Of a DNA stretch of 64,000 nt, positions 11,834-57,733 are shown in pieces. This DNA is from Hymenobacter elongatus. Its GTDB lineage: Bacteria; Bacteroidota; Bacteroidia; Cytophagales; Hymenobacteraceae. The notes under the pieces are model-generated. The model saw nothing but the letters and a program-made list of their open reading frames with translations. It had not been told where the DNA came from and made no database searches. Each line of letters opens with the position of its first letter. The stretch's first letter is position 1. The stretch spans positions 1 through 64,000 of the forward strand of contig NZ_SRLD01000028.1 in NCBI RefSeq assembly GCF_004745955.1, written 5' to 3'. The position numbers and the translations under genes were made by a program.

Positions 11834-11867
11834 AAAAGCCCCGATGTAGGAATGCATCGGGGCTTTG
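11834..11867 (+). terminator. Intrinsic terminator after rnr
   Basis: The arms AAAAGCCCCGATG and CATCGGGGCTTT are separated by 8 bases, about 50 bases downstream of the rnr stop. Confidence 0.8.
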
Positions 11868-12002
11868 TGGTTAAGCATAGTGTCGTGCTACGTAAGAGAA
11901 CAGTCTGTTCGCTCAAACAGAGGAAGCCCGGCCCCGCACAGCCCGGCTTCTTCGGCTCCGCCATTTCCTCCGTACCTTTCCGCCCCACCTCTAAGCTGCC
12001 CT

Positions 12003-12974
12003 GTGGACCTCTCTTTTTTCTCCGATAAAATCACTGCCGCCCTGTCCCAACAGCGCTATGGCCAGGCTCCGGAAGCCCTCTACGAACCCATTCGCTACAT
12101 CATGGCGCTGGGCGGCAAGCGCATCCGGCCGCTGCTCACGCTGCTTGGAGCCCACCTCTTCACCGACGACCTCGATGCCATTCTGAAGCCGGCGCTGGGC
12201 ACCGAGGTTTTTCACAACTTTACCCTGCTCCACGACGACATCATGGACCAGGCCCCGCTGCGGCGCGGCCAGCCCACGGTACACGAGAAGTGGAATGCCA
12301 ACGTGGCTATTCTGAGCGGCGACGTGATGCTGGTGCGGGCCTACGAGCTGTTTCTGGACGTGCGCCCCGAGTTGCTCCCAGTGGTGCTGCGCAAGTTCAG
12401 CCAAACGGCCGCCGAGGTCTGCGAGGGCCAGCAGTGGGATATGAACTTCGAAACCAACGAGCAGGTCAGCATTGCGCAGTACCTGGATATGATTCGGCTG
12501 AAGACGGCCGTGCTGCTGGGCTTTTGCCTGGAGCTGGGCGCGCTGCTGGCCGGCGCTACCGCCGTCGATGCCGACCACCTGCGCCAGTTTGGTACCGATA
12601 TCGGCATTGCCTTCCAGCTCCGCGACGACCTGCTCGACGTGTACGGCGACGCAGCTACTTTCGGCAAGCGCGTCGGCGGCGACATCGTTTCGGACAAGAA
12701 AACCTTTCTGCTGCTCACGGCCCAGGCTCAGGCTACCGAGGCCCAGCGCGCCACGCTGGCGCAGTACATCGGCCAGCCCGTGGTGGATGCCGCTACCAAA
12801 GTGCAGGCCGTGCGCGCCGTATATGATGAGCTCAATATTCGCTCCCAGACGGAAGCGCTGATCAACGACTACTTCCAGGATGCGCTCCAGCATCTCGACC
12901 GCACCCAGGCTCCGGCCGAGCGGAAGGAGCCGCTGCGGCGCGTGGCGTTGCAGCTGATGGAGCGCGAAAGCTAA
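12003..12974 (+). CDS. Polyprenyl diphosphate synthase (trans-isoprenyl type)
   Basis: Head-to-tail prenyltransferase that condenses isopentenyl diphosphate onto allylic diphosphates. 323 residues from the GTG at 12003 (reading VDLSFFSDKI); upstream in-frame sequence is proline/serine-rich and unlike the family. Motifs: GGKRIRPLL, the first aspartate-rich motif LLHDDIMDQ, RRGQPTVHEKW, and the second aspartate-rich motif QLRDDLLDVYGD, followed by GGDIVSDKKTFLL. Product chain length (geranylgeranyl, or longer for menaquinone) cannot be read reliably. A GGGP synthase gene at 54.6 kb would use geranylgeranyl diphosphate or a similar product. TACCTTTC at 11973-11980 is a near-match -7 box. Confidence 0.93.
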   Translation: MDLSFFSDKITAALSQQRYGQAPEALYEPIRYIMALGGKRIRPLLTLLGAHLFTDDLDAILKPALGTEVFHNFTLLHDDIMDQAPLRRGQPTVHEKWNANVAILSGDVMLVRAYELFLDVRPELLPVVLRKFSQTAAEVCEGQQWDMNFETNEQVSIAQYLDMIRLKTAVLLGFCLELGALLAGATAVDADHLRQFGTDIGIAFQLRDDLLDVYGDAATFGKRVGGDIVSDKKTFLLLTAQAQATEAQRATLAQYIGQPVVDAATKVQAVRAVYDELNIRSQTEALINDYFQDALQHLDRTQAPAERKEPLRRVALQLMERES

Positions 12975-53529: not shown

Positions 53530-54453
53530 ATGGAAGATTACAATAAAGTGATAGAGTCGCTTGGTGTACGATACATTAAAGCGAAAAATCTGGTTCTGCA
53601 GCAGCCCTTTACCGTTCGGAATTACTACGACGTTGGCAACAACCTGATTCTGCTGCACAAGGGCCGCGTTGCCTTCGGCGAAGAAGAACAAGTAGTGGAG
53701 GAAGGCGAAATGCTCTTCATTCCCGGCGGGCGGGCTACGAAGGTTAGCTACGGCGAAGCGGCCGGTAAGATTATCACCAACGATGACCTGATTAGCAACA
53801 AGGACAAGTTCTTCCACTCCAATGCCGATCTTGACTTGATTGGCGATGCTGAGGAAAGCCATAGCTTCGTAAGCTTCGAAGCCAAGGTGTTCGACTCCGT
53901 TAACTTCTTCGCGTCGCTGGATGTGCCGGCCTTCCTGATTACCGGCAACTCCAAGCTGGCTAATCTGGTGATTAAGGTGGTGGAAGAGAGCATGCAGGAA
54001 CTGCCCGGCCGCGAGCGTCTCATCACTATCTACACCGAGAACATCGTGGTGGAGATTGTACGCTACATTCTCAAGAACAAGATGTTTGTGGAGCAGCTGG
54101 CTACCAACAGCACCTACTTCAAAGATCCGCGCCTCATCGATCTGTTCAACTACATCAAGGAGAACATCGGCGGCGACTTGTCCAACAAGGTGCTGTCGAG
54201 CGTGGCCAACGTGAGCGAAGACTACGTGGGCCAGTACTTCAAGATGCTGACCGGCATCAATCCCCAGGATTACATTGAGTACCAGCGCATGGAGCGGGCC
54301 GTGTTCCTGCTGCGTACCACCAAGAAAAGCATCCGCGACATTGGTAAGGAAGTGGGCTACAAAGACACCGCGTACTTCTGCCGCCGCTTCAAGATGATGT
54401 TCGGTATTCCGGCCGGTAAGATGCGCCGCCGTGAGTCGGCTATGAATATCTAA
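53530..54453 (+). CDS. AraC family transcriptional regulator with N-terminal cupin domain
   Basis: 307 residues. The N-terminal 100 residues form a cupin-like sensor (NYYDVGNNLILLHKGRVAFG, VVEEGEMLFIPGGRATKVSY). The C-terminal domain (about 205-305) holds two HTHs: LSNKVLSSVANVSEDYVGQY and KKSIRDIGKEVGYKDTAYFC followed by RRFKMMFGIPAGKMRR. A conserved Bacteroidota type. Targets and ligand unknown. The upstream 160 bases are AT-rich with TATTTTG at 53458-53464 as a probable -7 element. Confidence 0.92.
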   Translation: MEDYNKVIESLGVRYIKAKNLVLQQPFTVRNYYDVGNNLILLHKGRVAFGEEEQVVEEGEMLFIPGGRATKVSYGEAAGKIITNDDLISNKDKFFHSNADLDLIGDAEESHSFVSFEAKVFDSVNFFASLDVPAFLITGNSKLANLVIKVVEESMQELPGRERLITIYTENIVVEIVRYILKNKMFVEQLATNSTYFKDPRLIDLFNYIKENIGGDLSNKVLSSVANVSEDYVGQYFKMLTGINPQDYIEYQRMERAVFLLRTTKKSIRDIGKEVGYKDTAYFCRRFKMMFGIPAGKMRRRESAMNI

Positions 54454-54466
54454 TCGGTTTCATCCA

Positions 54467-54512
54467 AACCAAAAAGCCCGGCATCAAGCAATTGATGCCG
54501 GGCTTTTTGGTT
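54467..54512. terminator. Bidirectional terminator between the AraC and GGGP synthase genes
   Basis: AAAAAGCCCGGCATCAA pairs with TTGATGCCGGGCTTTTT with a 4-base loop; flanking AACC/GGTT extend the stem. Confidence 0.9.
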
Positions 54513-54554: not shown

Positions 54555-55325
54555 CTATATCTTCATATCCAGCACGGAGTTGAAAGTGCGTACCACTTTC
54601 GACATCTCGGCCAGAAAGTCGGGAGCCTTTTCTATCTGATTGCCGATTACGATGACGTCGGCTCCAGCAACGAGGGCCGTATGTGCTTTTTCAGCGGTAT
54701 TGATGCCGCCACCCACTATCAGAGGTGTATCGGTAGCTTGGCGCACCGCCCGGATCATAGCGGCCGAAACCGGATACATGGCGCCACTGCCGCCATCGAG
54801 ATACATCAGGCGCAAACCCAATTGCTCACCGGCCATAGCCGTGCAGGCCGCAATAGTGGGCTTGTCGTAGGGTAGGGGAGTAGTGCCACTCATGTAGCTG
54901 GCCGTAGTCTGCCGTCCCGTGTCGACGAGCATGTAGCCAGTTGGCAATATCTGCAGATTGCTGGCCCGCAACAGCGGAGCGGCCACCACATGCTGCCCAA
55001 TAAGAAAATCGGGGTTGCGGCCCGAAATGAGGGATAAAAGCAGAATGCCATCTGCCTGCACATCGAGATGCAGACTGTGACTGGGGAAAAGCAGCACCGG
55101 GACGGCGCTGCAACTCTTTATCAAACGAATGAGCGACGCCTGGTGAGAAGTCATCACCAGGCTGCCGCCCACAAAAAAGTAGTCAATTGGGTTTACTTCA
55201 CTCAGCTCCAGCAAATGCCGGCACCCCGCTTCGTCCAGGTGGTCCGGGTCGAGCAGTACGGCCAGAGACTTCTGGCCCCGGGCGCGGCGCTTGCTAAGAG
55301 TTTCATGCAGGCTGGTGAGGCGCAT
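54555..55325 (-). CDS. Geranylgeranylglyceryl phosphate synthase-like protein
   Basis: 256 residues from the ATG at 55325. TIM-barrel prenyltransferase of the GGGPS/PcrB family, which joins sn-glycerol 1-phosphate to a polyprenyl diphosphate. Motifs: SLAVLLDPDHLD, FFVGGSLVMTS, VLLFPSHSLHL, LMYLDGGSGAMYPVS and the phosphate-binding LIVGGGINTAEKAHTALVAG then ADVIVIGNQIEK. Archaea use it for ether lipids; Bacteroidota orthologues are known to be active GGGP synthases. The final product in this phylum is not established. The start overlaps the upstream gene by 23 bases, so the two are coupled. A longer start at 55403 is rejected because of that overlap. Confidence 0.9.
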   Translation of the reverse strand: MRLTSLHETLSKRRARGQKSLAVLLDPDHLDEAGCRHLLELSEVNPIDYFFVGGSLVMTSHQASLIRLIKSCSAVPVLLFPSHSLHLDVQADGILLLSLISGRNPDFLIGQHVVAAPLLRASNLQILPTGYMLVDTGRQTTASYMSGTTPLPYDKPTIAACTAMAGEQLGLRLMYLDGGSGAMYPVSAAMIRAVRQATDTPLIVGGGINTAEKAHTALVAGADVIVIGNQIEKAPDFLAEMSKVVRTFNSVLDMKI

Positions 55326-56055
55326 CCGCTTCGTCGTGGTGATACGTAAAGTCGATATCCTTCGTCTCGGGCTCATGAGCCGCCGAACCCGGGGAAGTCG
55401 CAAGGTCGGGATTTTTGATCATAGGTAGATAGTCCCCTACTCTTTTGGCTACGTAAGCCATCAAAACCGCTGTCACCTGCGCTAGAAGCATCTTGCCGGT
55501 ATCGGATTGCATGAAGCTCTTGAAGGCAGAAGCCATCAGGTTAGCCGCTTCCGAAGAAGGAGCAGCCTGCTGATACGGCTGCATTGCATACCGTCGCTGC
55601 GCTGGTGCTACCGGCGAAAAAGGGTCCGTCTCCGAATCGGTGTGGTATACGTCCGGCGCTAAGTGGGCGCGCTCGTGCATAGGGGCCATGGCGCCCCGGT
55701 CGGCTTGGTGCGGGTGGGCAGAGCCAAATCCTAAGTCATCGGCTACCGAAGTATCGACATCGGCACGGCGGCTGTTAGCAACACGGTTTTTTTTGCGGGA
55801 AGAGGCTACCTGCTCGTGCAAGCCAAGTTCCTCCATGCCTTCATCGAAATCGGAGTGCTTCTTGCTGCCGAAAGCCTTCTTGATAAGCCAAATGCTGCCC
55901 AACAGGCCGGCACCTATTAGGGCATACTTACCCACTTGCTGGGTTTTCTCCTTTATTTCATCAACATCTCCTTGCAGTGCCCGCTCATATTCGAGCTTTT
56001 GGCGCTCCAGAAACTCTCTTTCGTCGTCGAACAGTGGGTTGGTCAGCTCAGCCAT
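55303..56055 (-). CDS. Protein of unknown function in the GGGP synthase operon
   Basis: 250 residues. Acidic N-terminal helix (NPLFDDEREFLERQKLEYER), one hydrophobic stretch (VGKYALIGAGLLGSIWLIKK), a long Asp/His/Pro-rich low-complexity middle, then a second hydrophobic segment (MLLAQVTAVLMAYVAKRVGD) and an acidic tail. It looks like a membrane-associated linker protein. Lies between the holin-like gene (8 bases upstream) and GGGP synthase, overlapping the latter. No family recognised. Confidence 0.72.
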   Translation of the reverse strand: MAELTNPLFDDEREFLERQKLEYERALQGDVDEIKEKTQQVGKYALIGAGLLGSIWLIKKAFGSKKHSDFDEGMEELGLHEQVASSRKKNRVANSRRADVDTSVADDLGFGSAHPHQADRGAMAPMHERAHLAPDVYHTDSETDPFSPVAPAQRRYAMQPYQQAAPSSEAANLMASAFKSFMQSDTGKMLLAQVTAVLMAYVAKRVGDYLPMIKNPDLATSPGSAAHEPETKDIDFTYHHDEADAPHQPA

Positions 56056-56063
56056 GAGGTAGA

Positions 56064-56441
56064 TTATGCTTGACGTTTGTCAGATTTGTAGATGGTGTTG
56101 TTCAGGAGCTTGTCAGCCAAACCCTGGAACAGCTTTTTGTCGACGCCCACCAGGAAAATGATGAGCAGCACCAGGTAAAACCCTGCTACGGCCCCAAATC
56201 CCAGGTAAGAGCTGTCGAAAGCCTCATTTAAGGCTAGGCCGGCAAAGATGCTCAGGAAAACCAGAAACAGTAGCCCGATCAGGCCCATAGCGGCCCCGTG
56301 CACCGTGCCCACGAAAGCCAGCTTGACTTTCTCCTGTACTTCGAGGCGCACCAAGTCGATGCGGGTGTCGAGGTAGCCTTTAAGATTGCCTACCAAGCTG
56401 TCGTTGCGGGGCGTTTTAGAATCGTCGTCGTCGTAAGCCAT
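56064..56441 (-). CDS. Phage holin-superfamily/DUF membrane protein (chromosomal type)
   Basis: 125 residues. A cytoplasmic amphipathic N-terminus (SLVGNLKGYLDTRIDLVRLE) followed by two membrane helices (GAAMGLIGLLFLVFLSIFAG and FGAVAGFYLVLLIIFLVGVD) and a basic end. This matches the Actino_X/holin-superfamily-III-like proteins that are common as chromosomal genes in Bacteroidota. No phage genes flank it, so a lysis role is not supported. First gene of a three-gene operon ending with GGGP synthase. Confidence 0.82.
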   Translation of the reverse strand: MAYDDDDSKTPRNDSLVGNLKGYLDTRIDLVRLEVQEKVKLAFVGTVHGAAMGLIGLLFLVFLSIFAGLALNEAFDSSYLGFGAVAGFYLVLLIIFLVGVDKKLFQGLADKLLNNTIYKSDKRQA

Positions 56442-56590
56442 ACGGCGGGGAGAAGAATAGCGAGAAAAGATGTTAGTAAGGTCGAACCCGTAAATCTAGC
56501 TCACAAGCCAGTTTACGGTTTGTCCGTTCATACGCAAAAGCGCAGTCTGTGTCTGAGATTTGCGTTACTTTTACTATATACTGCCGCGCT

Positions 56591-57733
56591 TTGAGCCAAA
56601 ATCATTATCAGGTATTAGGGGTGTCGACCACTGCTGATGCGCAGGAAATAAAGCTGGCTTACAAGCGGTTGGCTATTCAGTTTCACCCCGATAAGCACGG
56701 CGGCGACACCCGGTTCGAAGAGCAATTTAAAGCCGTTAGCGCGGCCTATCGGGTGCTGGGCGACGCTAATCGGCGGGCCGCTTACGATCAGCAATTGCGG
56801 GCTGCTGATGCCCGCGCCGCCGAAGCACGCCGTCAGCAGCAGTTTCGGGCCCAGGGGCAGTATGTGTACGGGGTTCCGATGCCCCCACCGGTGCCCCTGC
56901 GTACCCGTCGCCCCGCTGGCTCCGCTGAGCGCCACTACCGAACCATTCCGAAGCAGCGCCCCAAGTTTACCCGCCGCGACTATCTGCTGACGGTAGCGTT
57001 CCTAGTATTGTTGACGCTGTTTGTGGGGGCCGTGAAAGTGACCATGGACCATGTGACGGCCGTGAGCAACTACGAGTATGGACTACGGGCCTATTCGCGC
57101 CGGCAGTGGAGCACGGCCCATGGCTTTTTCTCGGAGGCCCTACACTTTAAGGCCCGCTACAAGGAGGCCCTGCGCCGTCGCGCCGAAATTGAGCAGCTCT
57201 TCTACCGCAACTATAAAGCCGCCCGAGCCGACTATGCGCTAGCACTGCAAGCAGATAATTCGCGCCAGGAAGCGGCCGTATTGCTATACCGACTGGGGCA
57301 ATGCCAAGCGAATCTGGCTCAGAGAGACTCCGCTGAACTCCACTTGACCCAGGCCTTGACCCTGGATTCTACATTGAGCGCGGCGTGGCTGGCGCGCGGC
57401 GAGTTACGGCTATTCGAGCTCCAGCACTTCAGCGCGGCCGTTGGCGACCTCTCCACCGGCCTGCGTCAGCGCGACACGACGGGCCGGTCATTATCTCTGA
57501 AATACCTAACCTACCGCGGGCTTGCTTTCTACAAGCAGCGAAATTTCGGTGCTGCCCGGCAGGATTACCGGCGGGTACTGCTTCGGAACCCCAGAAACGG
57601 GCAGGTGCATTTTCTGCTGGGGCGGCTGGCGCAGCAGGAAGGCAATAAGGCTGCAGCCTGCGAATTTTTCCGGCGGGCCGTGCAGCTTGGGTATCGCTAT
57701 GGGCAGGAAGCGCGGGAGCAGGCATGTCGGTAG
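56591..57733 (+). CDS. J-domain protein with TPR repeats
   Basis: 380 residues from the TTG at 56591; a GTG at 56549 would precede the -7-like TTACTTTTA (56563-56573) and is less likely. The J domain is N-terminal: NHYQVLGVSTTADAQEIKLA, HPDKHGGD with HPD at 32-34, and YRVLGDANRRAAYDQQL. A proline/arginine linker, one membrane helix (YLLTVAFLVLLTLFVGAVKV) and TPR repeats follow (AAWLARGELRLFELQHFSAA, HFLLGRLAQQEGNKAAACEF). It probably recruits DnaK to the membrane. Partner unknown. Confidence 0.88.
   Translation: MSQNHYQVLGVSTTADAQEIKLAYKRLAIQFHPDKHGGDTRFEEQFKAVSAAYRVLGDANRRAAYDQQLRAADARAAEARRQQQFRAQGQYVYGVPMPPPVPLRTRRPAGSAERHYRTIPKQRPKFTRRDYLLTVAFLVLLTLFVGAVKVTMDHVTAVSNYEYGLRAYSRRQWSTAHGFFSEALHFKARYKEALRRRAEIEQLFYRNYKAARADYALALQADNSRQEAAVLLYRLGQCQANLAQRDSAELHLTQALTLDSTLSAAWLARGELRLFELQHFSAAVGDLSTGLRQRDTTGRSLSLKYLTYRGLAFYKQRNFGAARQDYRRVLLRNPRNGQVHFLLGRLAQQEGNKAAACEFFRRAVQLGYRYGQEAREQACR

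Follow-up and report, generated by a model that had tools for sequence, protein, structure and literature searches.

A group-II geranylgeranylglyceryl phosphate synthase (GGGPS) gene of Hymenobacter elongatus is preceded, on the same strand, by the genes for H, a small protein of the PF07332 family, and M, a predicted membrane protein, and this three-gene arrangement recurs among the Cytophagales genomes sampled. H and M most likely constitute a YqjE-type membrane module that is made together with GGGPS. With a confidence somewhat short of even, we read the cluster as a conserved three-gene Cytophagales operon whose products are functionally coupled, including by proximity at the membrane. The fixed arrangement of GGGPS with two small membrane proteins suggests that production of its lipid goes together with a membrane module and probably takes place beside it.

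Gene arrangement and protein families

The three genes lie close together in the window (the whole 64,000-nucleotide stretch of DNA analysed here; Table 1). Only 8 nt separate the stop codon of H from the start of M, and M overlaps GGGPS by 23 nt, with the M stop codon lying inside GGGPS; the three open reading frames (ORFs), all on the minus strand, are confirmed at the coordinates given in the first-pass annotation. The GGGPS ORF as listed opens at a TTG at 55403, while relatives align from the ATG at 55325 (MRLTSLHETL...); its stop codon occupies 54555–54557. A perfect inverted repeat, the inner part of which was also listed on the minus strand by a sequence scan, sits between GGGPS and the convergent AraC-type gene, and is probably a bidirectional terminator for the two. 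A sigma-70 promoter scan returned two sites, where shuffled sequences gave 1.3 on average; the promoter type usual in Bacteroidota falls outside the model used by the scan. Spacing and conservation suggest that the three genes form a single transcript, and we use the term putative operon on that basis.

Table 1. Features of the H–M–GGGPS region of the window
Feature	Coordinates	Strand	Description
H	56064..56441	minus	125 aa; PF07332 (Phage_holin_3_6 / YqjE family) small membrane protein; first gene of putative operon
M	55303..56055	minus	250 aa; unrecognised membrane protein; assigned from alignment and AlphaFold2
GGGPS	54555..55325	minus	256 aa; group-II geranylgeranylglyceryl phosphate synthase; assigned from NF003198, PDB 4jej and core motifs
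Perfect 18-bp inverted repeat with A/T runs	54470..54509		arms 54470–54487 and 54492–54509; loop of 4 nt
AraC-type gene	53530–54453	plus	convergent with GGGPS
DnaJ-TPR gene	56549–57733	plus	divergent from H

GGGPS scores 254.8 bits against NCBIfam NF003198 (cut-off 247) and 116.3 bits against Pfam PcrB (cut-off 23.9), and matches PDB 4jej, a GGGPS, with an E value of 4.9e-55, while the heptaprenylglyceryl model NF003197 yields 32.5 bits against a cut-off of 260. The motifs DPD, GGS, SGRNP, GSGA and VGGG, which have active-site roles, are conserved columns in an alignment of 101 sequences that includes the window's own. By these matches, the protein is a member of the FCB-type group-II family, with predicted activity on G1P and GGPP; its closest named relatives, from H. 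metallicola and H. nitidus, are 95% identical. It shares family, above-cut-off NF003198 score and core motifs with the Bacteroidota group-II enzymes (PDB 4jej and others), and differs from them in its conserved H–M neighbourhood and at residue 177 (window 54795–54797). Asp occupies this position in all 21 family proteins and in each of the 27 order proteins linked to H or M. Glu is found instead in 5 of 13 order proteins lacking that link and in most proteins outside the order (24 of 40), a split that is inseparable from ancestry and may reflect ancestry alone. In vitro GGGPS activity of enzymes from this phylum is cited in PMC7852524. Bacillus subtilis PcrB, a heptaprenylglyceryl phosphate synthase, belongs to the same superfamily.

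H scores 48.2 bits against PF07332 (Pfam cut-off 28.4), and all 45 aligned H members match that family at an E value of 0.01. The AlphaFold2 model of H (mean pLDDT 85.1) comprises helices at residues 11–75, 80–99 and 102–122, and a Foldseek search of the model against the PDB gave no match with an E value of 0.001 or below. PF07332 also includes E. coli YqjE (75.8 bits), which is annotated as an inner-membrane protein, so the word "holin" in the family name says little and need not mean lysis. The Cytophagales H alignment matches the single YqjE sequence weakly in hhalign (29 columns, probability 4.6%).

The best matches of M all fall below cut-off (Pfam DUF1515, E value 0.033; NCBIfam, E value 0.06). 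At an E value of 0.01, no Pfam family is common to more than one of 43 M members; three Pfam matches, each to a single member, have E values of 0.0056–0.0079. Identification of M as YqjD/DUF883, YtxH or YqjK was rejected, none of the 43 members matching PF05957/PF19029, PF12732 or PF13997 at an E value of 0.01; the hhalign probability is 0.8% for YqjD and 0.2% for YqjK. In the AlphaFold2 model (mean pLDDT 65.8), an N-terminal helix at residues 7–62 carries a charged stretch followed by a hydrophobic segment, which is probably transmembrane, residues from about 63 to 167 are of low confidence, and two further helices span residues 168–183 and 185–209. M also has a basic patch, a long disordered linker and hydrophobic C-terminal helices. 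The low-confidence middle of the model justifies the earlier description of M as a disordered membrane protein. Linker length varies, and complete M relatives accordingly measure between 111 and 318 aa. Of 247 phylum-sample genomes, 14 yielded M relatives, ten of them in the order and the other four with weak matches (E values of 6.1e-7 to 8.8e-4); in the genomes sampled, M is nearly confined to Cytophagales.

Conservation within Cytophagales

In the family, which we take to be Hymenobacter, Pontibacter and relatives, H, M and GGGPS are each present in all 200 sampled genomes, and the trio is present, in the window's gene order, in 80 of 80 named relatives. The three genes have the same order and strand in 20 of 20 family loci, hand-picked to cover six genera, and the DnaJ-TPR gene adjoins H in every one. 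Family genomes largely preserve the whole neighbourhood; in three loci (L011, L013 and L014) part of the wider surroundings has changed and the trio is kept.

The sample of the order, Cytophagales, comprised 148 genomes. The counts omit its 11 genomes from the family above and treat as GGGPS-less two genomes (G239 and G334) with GGGPS matches at E values of 7.3e-4 and 1.3e-4, leaving 111 others with GGGPS. H and/or M lies directly upstream of GGGPS in 68 of these 111: 53 carry the full H–M–GGGPS arrangement, ten have H within 1.6 kb upstream with M undetected, and five have M–GGGPS without an adjacent H. The H–M pair is found elsewhere in the genome in 20, an unpaired H or M elsewhere in 12, and neither H nor M was detected in 11. 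When a single sequence was used as query, H was upstream of GGGPS in 56 of 111. The order-sample H matches, taken down to an E value of 7.0e-8, cover the top hit of each genome that has one, and copy numbers are at least those listed. By our estimate, a same-strand H would fall within 1.6 kb upstream of GGGPS by chance about once per several thousand 5-Mb genomes. The full trio is present in 13 of 17 other families represented. Hence the co-occurrence of the three genes, on which the first-pass annotation had staked its proposal, extends far beyond the genus.

The 111-genome count is the only order count free of our own choice of loci: of 40 order loci that were read, L024–L043 were chosen because their H and GGGPS matches lie near each other, and the next 20 include genomes without such proximity. 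The junction between M and GGGPS is tight throughout. In all 44 loci with M, the M stop lies 26–101 nt ahead of the codon for GGGPS residue 24, with spacing identical to the window's in 18. Several different genes lie upstream of H in the order loci. Across the 80 loci L024–L103, an AraC-type gene recurs beside GGGPS in ten, once without H or M (L052). In two loci of one family (f22; L044 and L045), H is undetected and the gene upstream of M–GGGPS encodes a protein of about 250 aa that has three hydrophobic stretches. In one genome (G311), GGGPS is split into two fragments, which lie at contig ends.

On an unrooted tree of 91 GGGPS sequences, the trio label needs eight changes, compared with a shuffle mean of 26.6, and six of the eight are forced by well-supported branches. 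This pattern fits an old assembly followed by later splits or losses; alternatively, the trio may have been gained repeatedly.

Separability of the H–M pair and lipid-pathway context

GGGPS was found in 89 of 247 phylum-sample genomes at an E value of 1e-20 or below, ten of which are family or order members. About 8 kb around GGGPS was read in 40 of the 79 loci outside the order, and neither H nor M lies beside GGGPS in any of the 40; the recurrent neighbours there are different genes. By sequence reading, GGGPS in L075, L076, L093, L099, L100 and other loci outside the order lies near apparent alanyl-tRNA synthetase and SIS-domain genes, and in several genomes of one family (f26) near phosphopantetheinyl-transferase-like, PnuC-like and NadR-like genes. 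The loci outside the order, together with the 11 order genomes that have neither H nor M, indicate that GGGPS does not need the pair.

Conversely, the 26 order-sample genomes without GGGPS include three with the H–M pair, 21 with only H or M, and two with neither. A genome search detected no GGGPS in two of the three with the pair (G280 and G317); the third pair (G305) ends at a contig end, where GGGPS may be hidden. Other sampled GGGPS-bearing members of the two families concerned (f11 and f9) have the trio or, once, M–GGGPS, and the simplest reading is that GGGPS was lost from G280 and G317 and the pair was kept. We read 20 loci bearing on separability: those of 16 of the 20 genomes with the pair elsewhere, of the three pairs lacking GGGPS, and of G209. 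In 18 of them, H and M are neighbours and the stretch contains no GGGPS; the exceptions are G305, at its contig end, and G209, of the M–GGGPS type. That the pair lies apart from GGGPS in 20 of the 111 genomes, and occurs in two others with no detected GGGPS, indicates that H–M does not need the enzyme.

The unlinked pair has different neighbours in different families. In all five f18 loci read (L199–L203) it precedes a fabF–rnc locus, a fatty-acid synthesis context, with an acpP-like ORF between the two in L201, the sole f18 locus checked for it. In four of the six f4 loci read, the pair is followed by a GNAT gene and argG, neither of them a lipid gene.

Other candidate lipid-pathway genes of the source genome lie apart from the cluster. 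A polyprenyl diphosphate synthase ORF at 11865–12974 in the window had been put forward as a possible substrate source. We rejected it as part of the system and as evidence for the link, because it is a generic family member and lies about 42 kb from the cluster; its scores for the 16 NCBIfam families listed all fall short of the cut-offs. The genome contains five UbiA matches, four of them above the Pfam cut-off: heme O synthase, MenA, a protein nearest NF009513/NF009512, and one left unassigned. The third of these, DGGGPS-like, is below both cut-offs (NF009513, 276.4 bits against 288; NF009512, 166.0 against 278), and its gene (L106:1423–2370) is on a different contig from GGGPS. A gene for a HAD-family hydrolase (L106:2787–3341) lies near it, and this neighbourhood possibly encodes later steps of the lipid pathway. 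In Ca. Cloacimonetes, likewise with a bacterial GGGPS of the FCB group, GGGPS is close to the gene for the next pathway enzyme, DGGGPS, as described in PMC7852524, whereas here its neighbours encode membrane proteins and the UbiA gene is on another contig.

A search of the source genome for a dedicated G1P dehydrogenase found none, yielding only two PF13685 matches, AroB, with 326.0 bits against a cut-off of 305, and an iron-containing alcohol dehydrogenase-like protein, with 548.8 against 645. B. subtilis, in contrast, has the G1P dehydrogenase AraM, and the same 2026 paper states that alternative routes to G1P must exist in E. coli and possibly in other bacteria (PMC13400652). A survey (PMC6431249) detected orthologs of GGGPS and DGGGPS in each of the 12 FCB phyla covered and G1P dehydrogenase in two only, and calls the functions of these genes unclear.

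Competing readings and biological meaning

GGGPS-family proteins are soluble enzymes whose product is a membrane lipid. A soluble TIM-barrel GGGPS would have to take up a prenyl diphosphate and release the lipid it makes into the inner membrane. H, as a helical-hairpin protein of the YqjE family, and M, with an N-terminal transmembrane helix, a flexible linker and hydrophobic C-terminal helices, would together make up a small membrane module. The role that we consider most likely is production of a prenyl-glycerol ether lipid together with, and close to, a module for membrane maintenance, such that lipid supply and membrane module would rise together. Anchoring of GGGPS by H–M is plausible, and the linker or the C-terminal helices of M would be the best candidate for holding the enzyme at the membrane. 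As the pair can persist in the absence of GGGPS, its core function is expected not to depend on the enzyme; by analogy with its relatives, our best guess for that function is envelope maintenance. The first-pass annotation had proposed that the unrecognised proteins act on, or are anchored near, the lipid product. The tie to GGGPS is borne out by the co-occurrence and by the M/GGGPS junction, while action on the product is not required by the data and the pair stands apart in 20 of 111 genomes. We count the fabF–rnc neighbourhood of the unlinked pair in f18, another lipid-synthesis context, in favour of coupling, and the non-lipid neighbours in f4 against it.

A stronger version of functional coupling strikes us as unlikely. 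It would make H and M a dedicated membrane scaffold recruiting nascent GGGPS, with M founding a new family that ties an archaeal-type ether-lipid enzyme to a YqjE-type module, and the trio serving as a stress membrane-remodelling system that puts prenyl-glycerol lipids into the inner membrane.

A possible, if somewhat doubtful, alternative is that the genes are only co-expressed. Here H–M would be an envelope-stress or stationary-phase module like E. coli yqjDE or Pseudomonas PA3040–3041, and GGGPS would share its promoter because the same conditions call for the lipid, without any contact between the proteins. The Pfam family shared by H and YqjE and the separability of H–M from GGGPS are consistent with this, as is the reported involvement of the P. 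aeruginosa PA3040–3042 operon in the cell-envelope stress response (PMC11302039). The E. coli yqjD–yqjE–yqjK and P. aeruginosa PA3040–PA3042 loci resemble the present cluster in linking a PF07332 protein closely with a small membrane protein, PA3040–3042 having a YqjD-like and a YqjE-like gene (PMC11302039). However, as annotated, they include no lipid-synthesis enzyme, M is not a DUF883, YtxH or YqjK protein, and the lack of detectable similarity of M to YqjD or YqjK in hhalign argues against equating the modules. Moreover, several of the Pseudomonas phenotypes, namely the biofilm, pyocyanin and tobramycin effects, are traced in that report to the third gene, PA3042, whose product, as far as it is described there, is like neither H nor M (PMC11302039), and the tightness of the M/GGGPS junction in 44 of 44 loci exceeds what a shared promoter needs.

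It is unlikely that the cluster is an inherited neighbourhood devoid of functional meaning, in which the genes joined a single time in some early lineage of the order and have mostly stayed together since. On the GGGPS tree the trio mostly follows descent, and neighbours on the other strand are often kept as well: all 20 family loci retain the DnaJ-TPR gene, and 9 of the 24 order loci that carry H and lie outside the family have the AraC-type gene following GGGPS. The latter gene also adjoins one GGGPS that has neither H nor M. The retention of these genes shifts weight towards simple inheritance and away from coupling, and means that neighbourhood alone is no proof of co-function. Against this, the trio survives changed flanks, both in the three altered family loci and in the 15 of 24 order loci with no AraC-type gene among the neighbours shown, and it spans most of the other families with its overlap kept.

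Finally, a phage lysis cassette or prophage remnant, for which nothing but the Pfam name of PF07332 speaks, has a negligible probability, and a phage-holin role for H was rejected on context, since the trio of the window is flanked by an AraC-type regulator and a DnaJ-TPR gene, and H is present as one copy in each of the 200 sampled family genomes and shares its family with YqjE, annotated as an inner-membrane protein.

The H–M–GGGPS neighbourhood appears in no title or displayed abstract among the papers, mostly from outside subscription journals, found on GGGPS, ether lipids, PF07332 holins and Hymenobacter. As a partner of GGGPS, M defines an undescribed protein family, and the PF07332 "holin" family gains another context that does not look phage-like. 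A conserved gene partner provides a direct genetic handle on an archaeal-type lipid enzyme in bacteria, and functional coupling of H–M with GGGPS predicts that they would share a phenotype and a membrane location.
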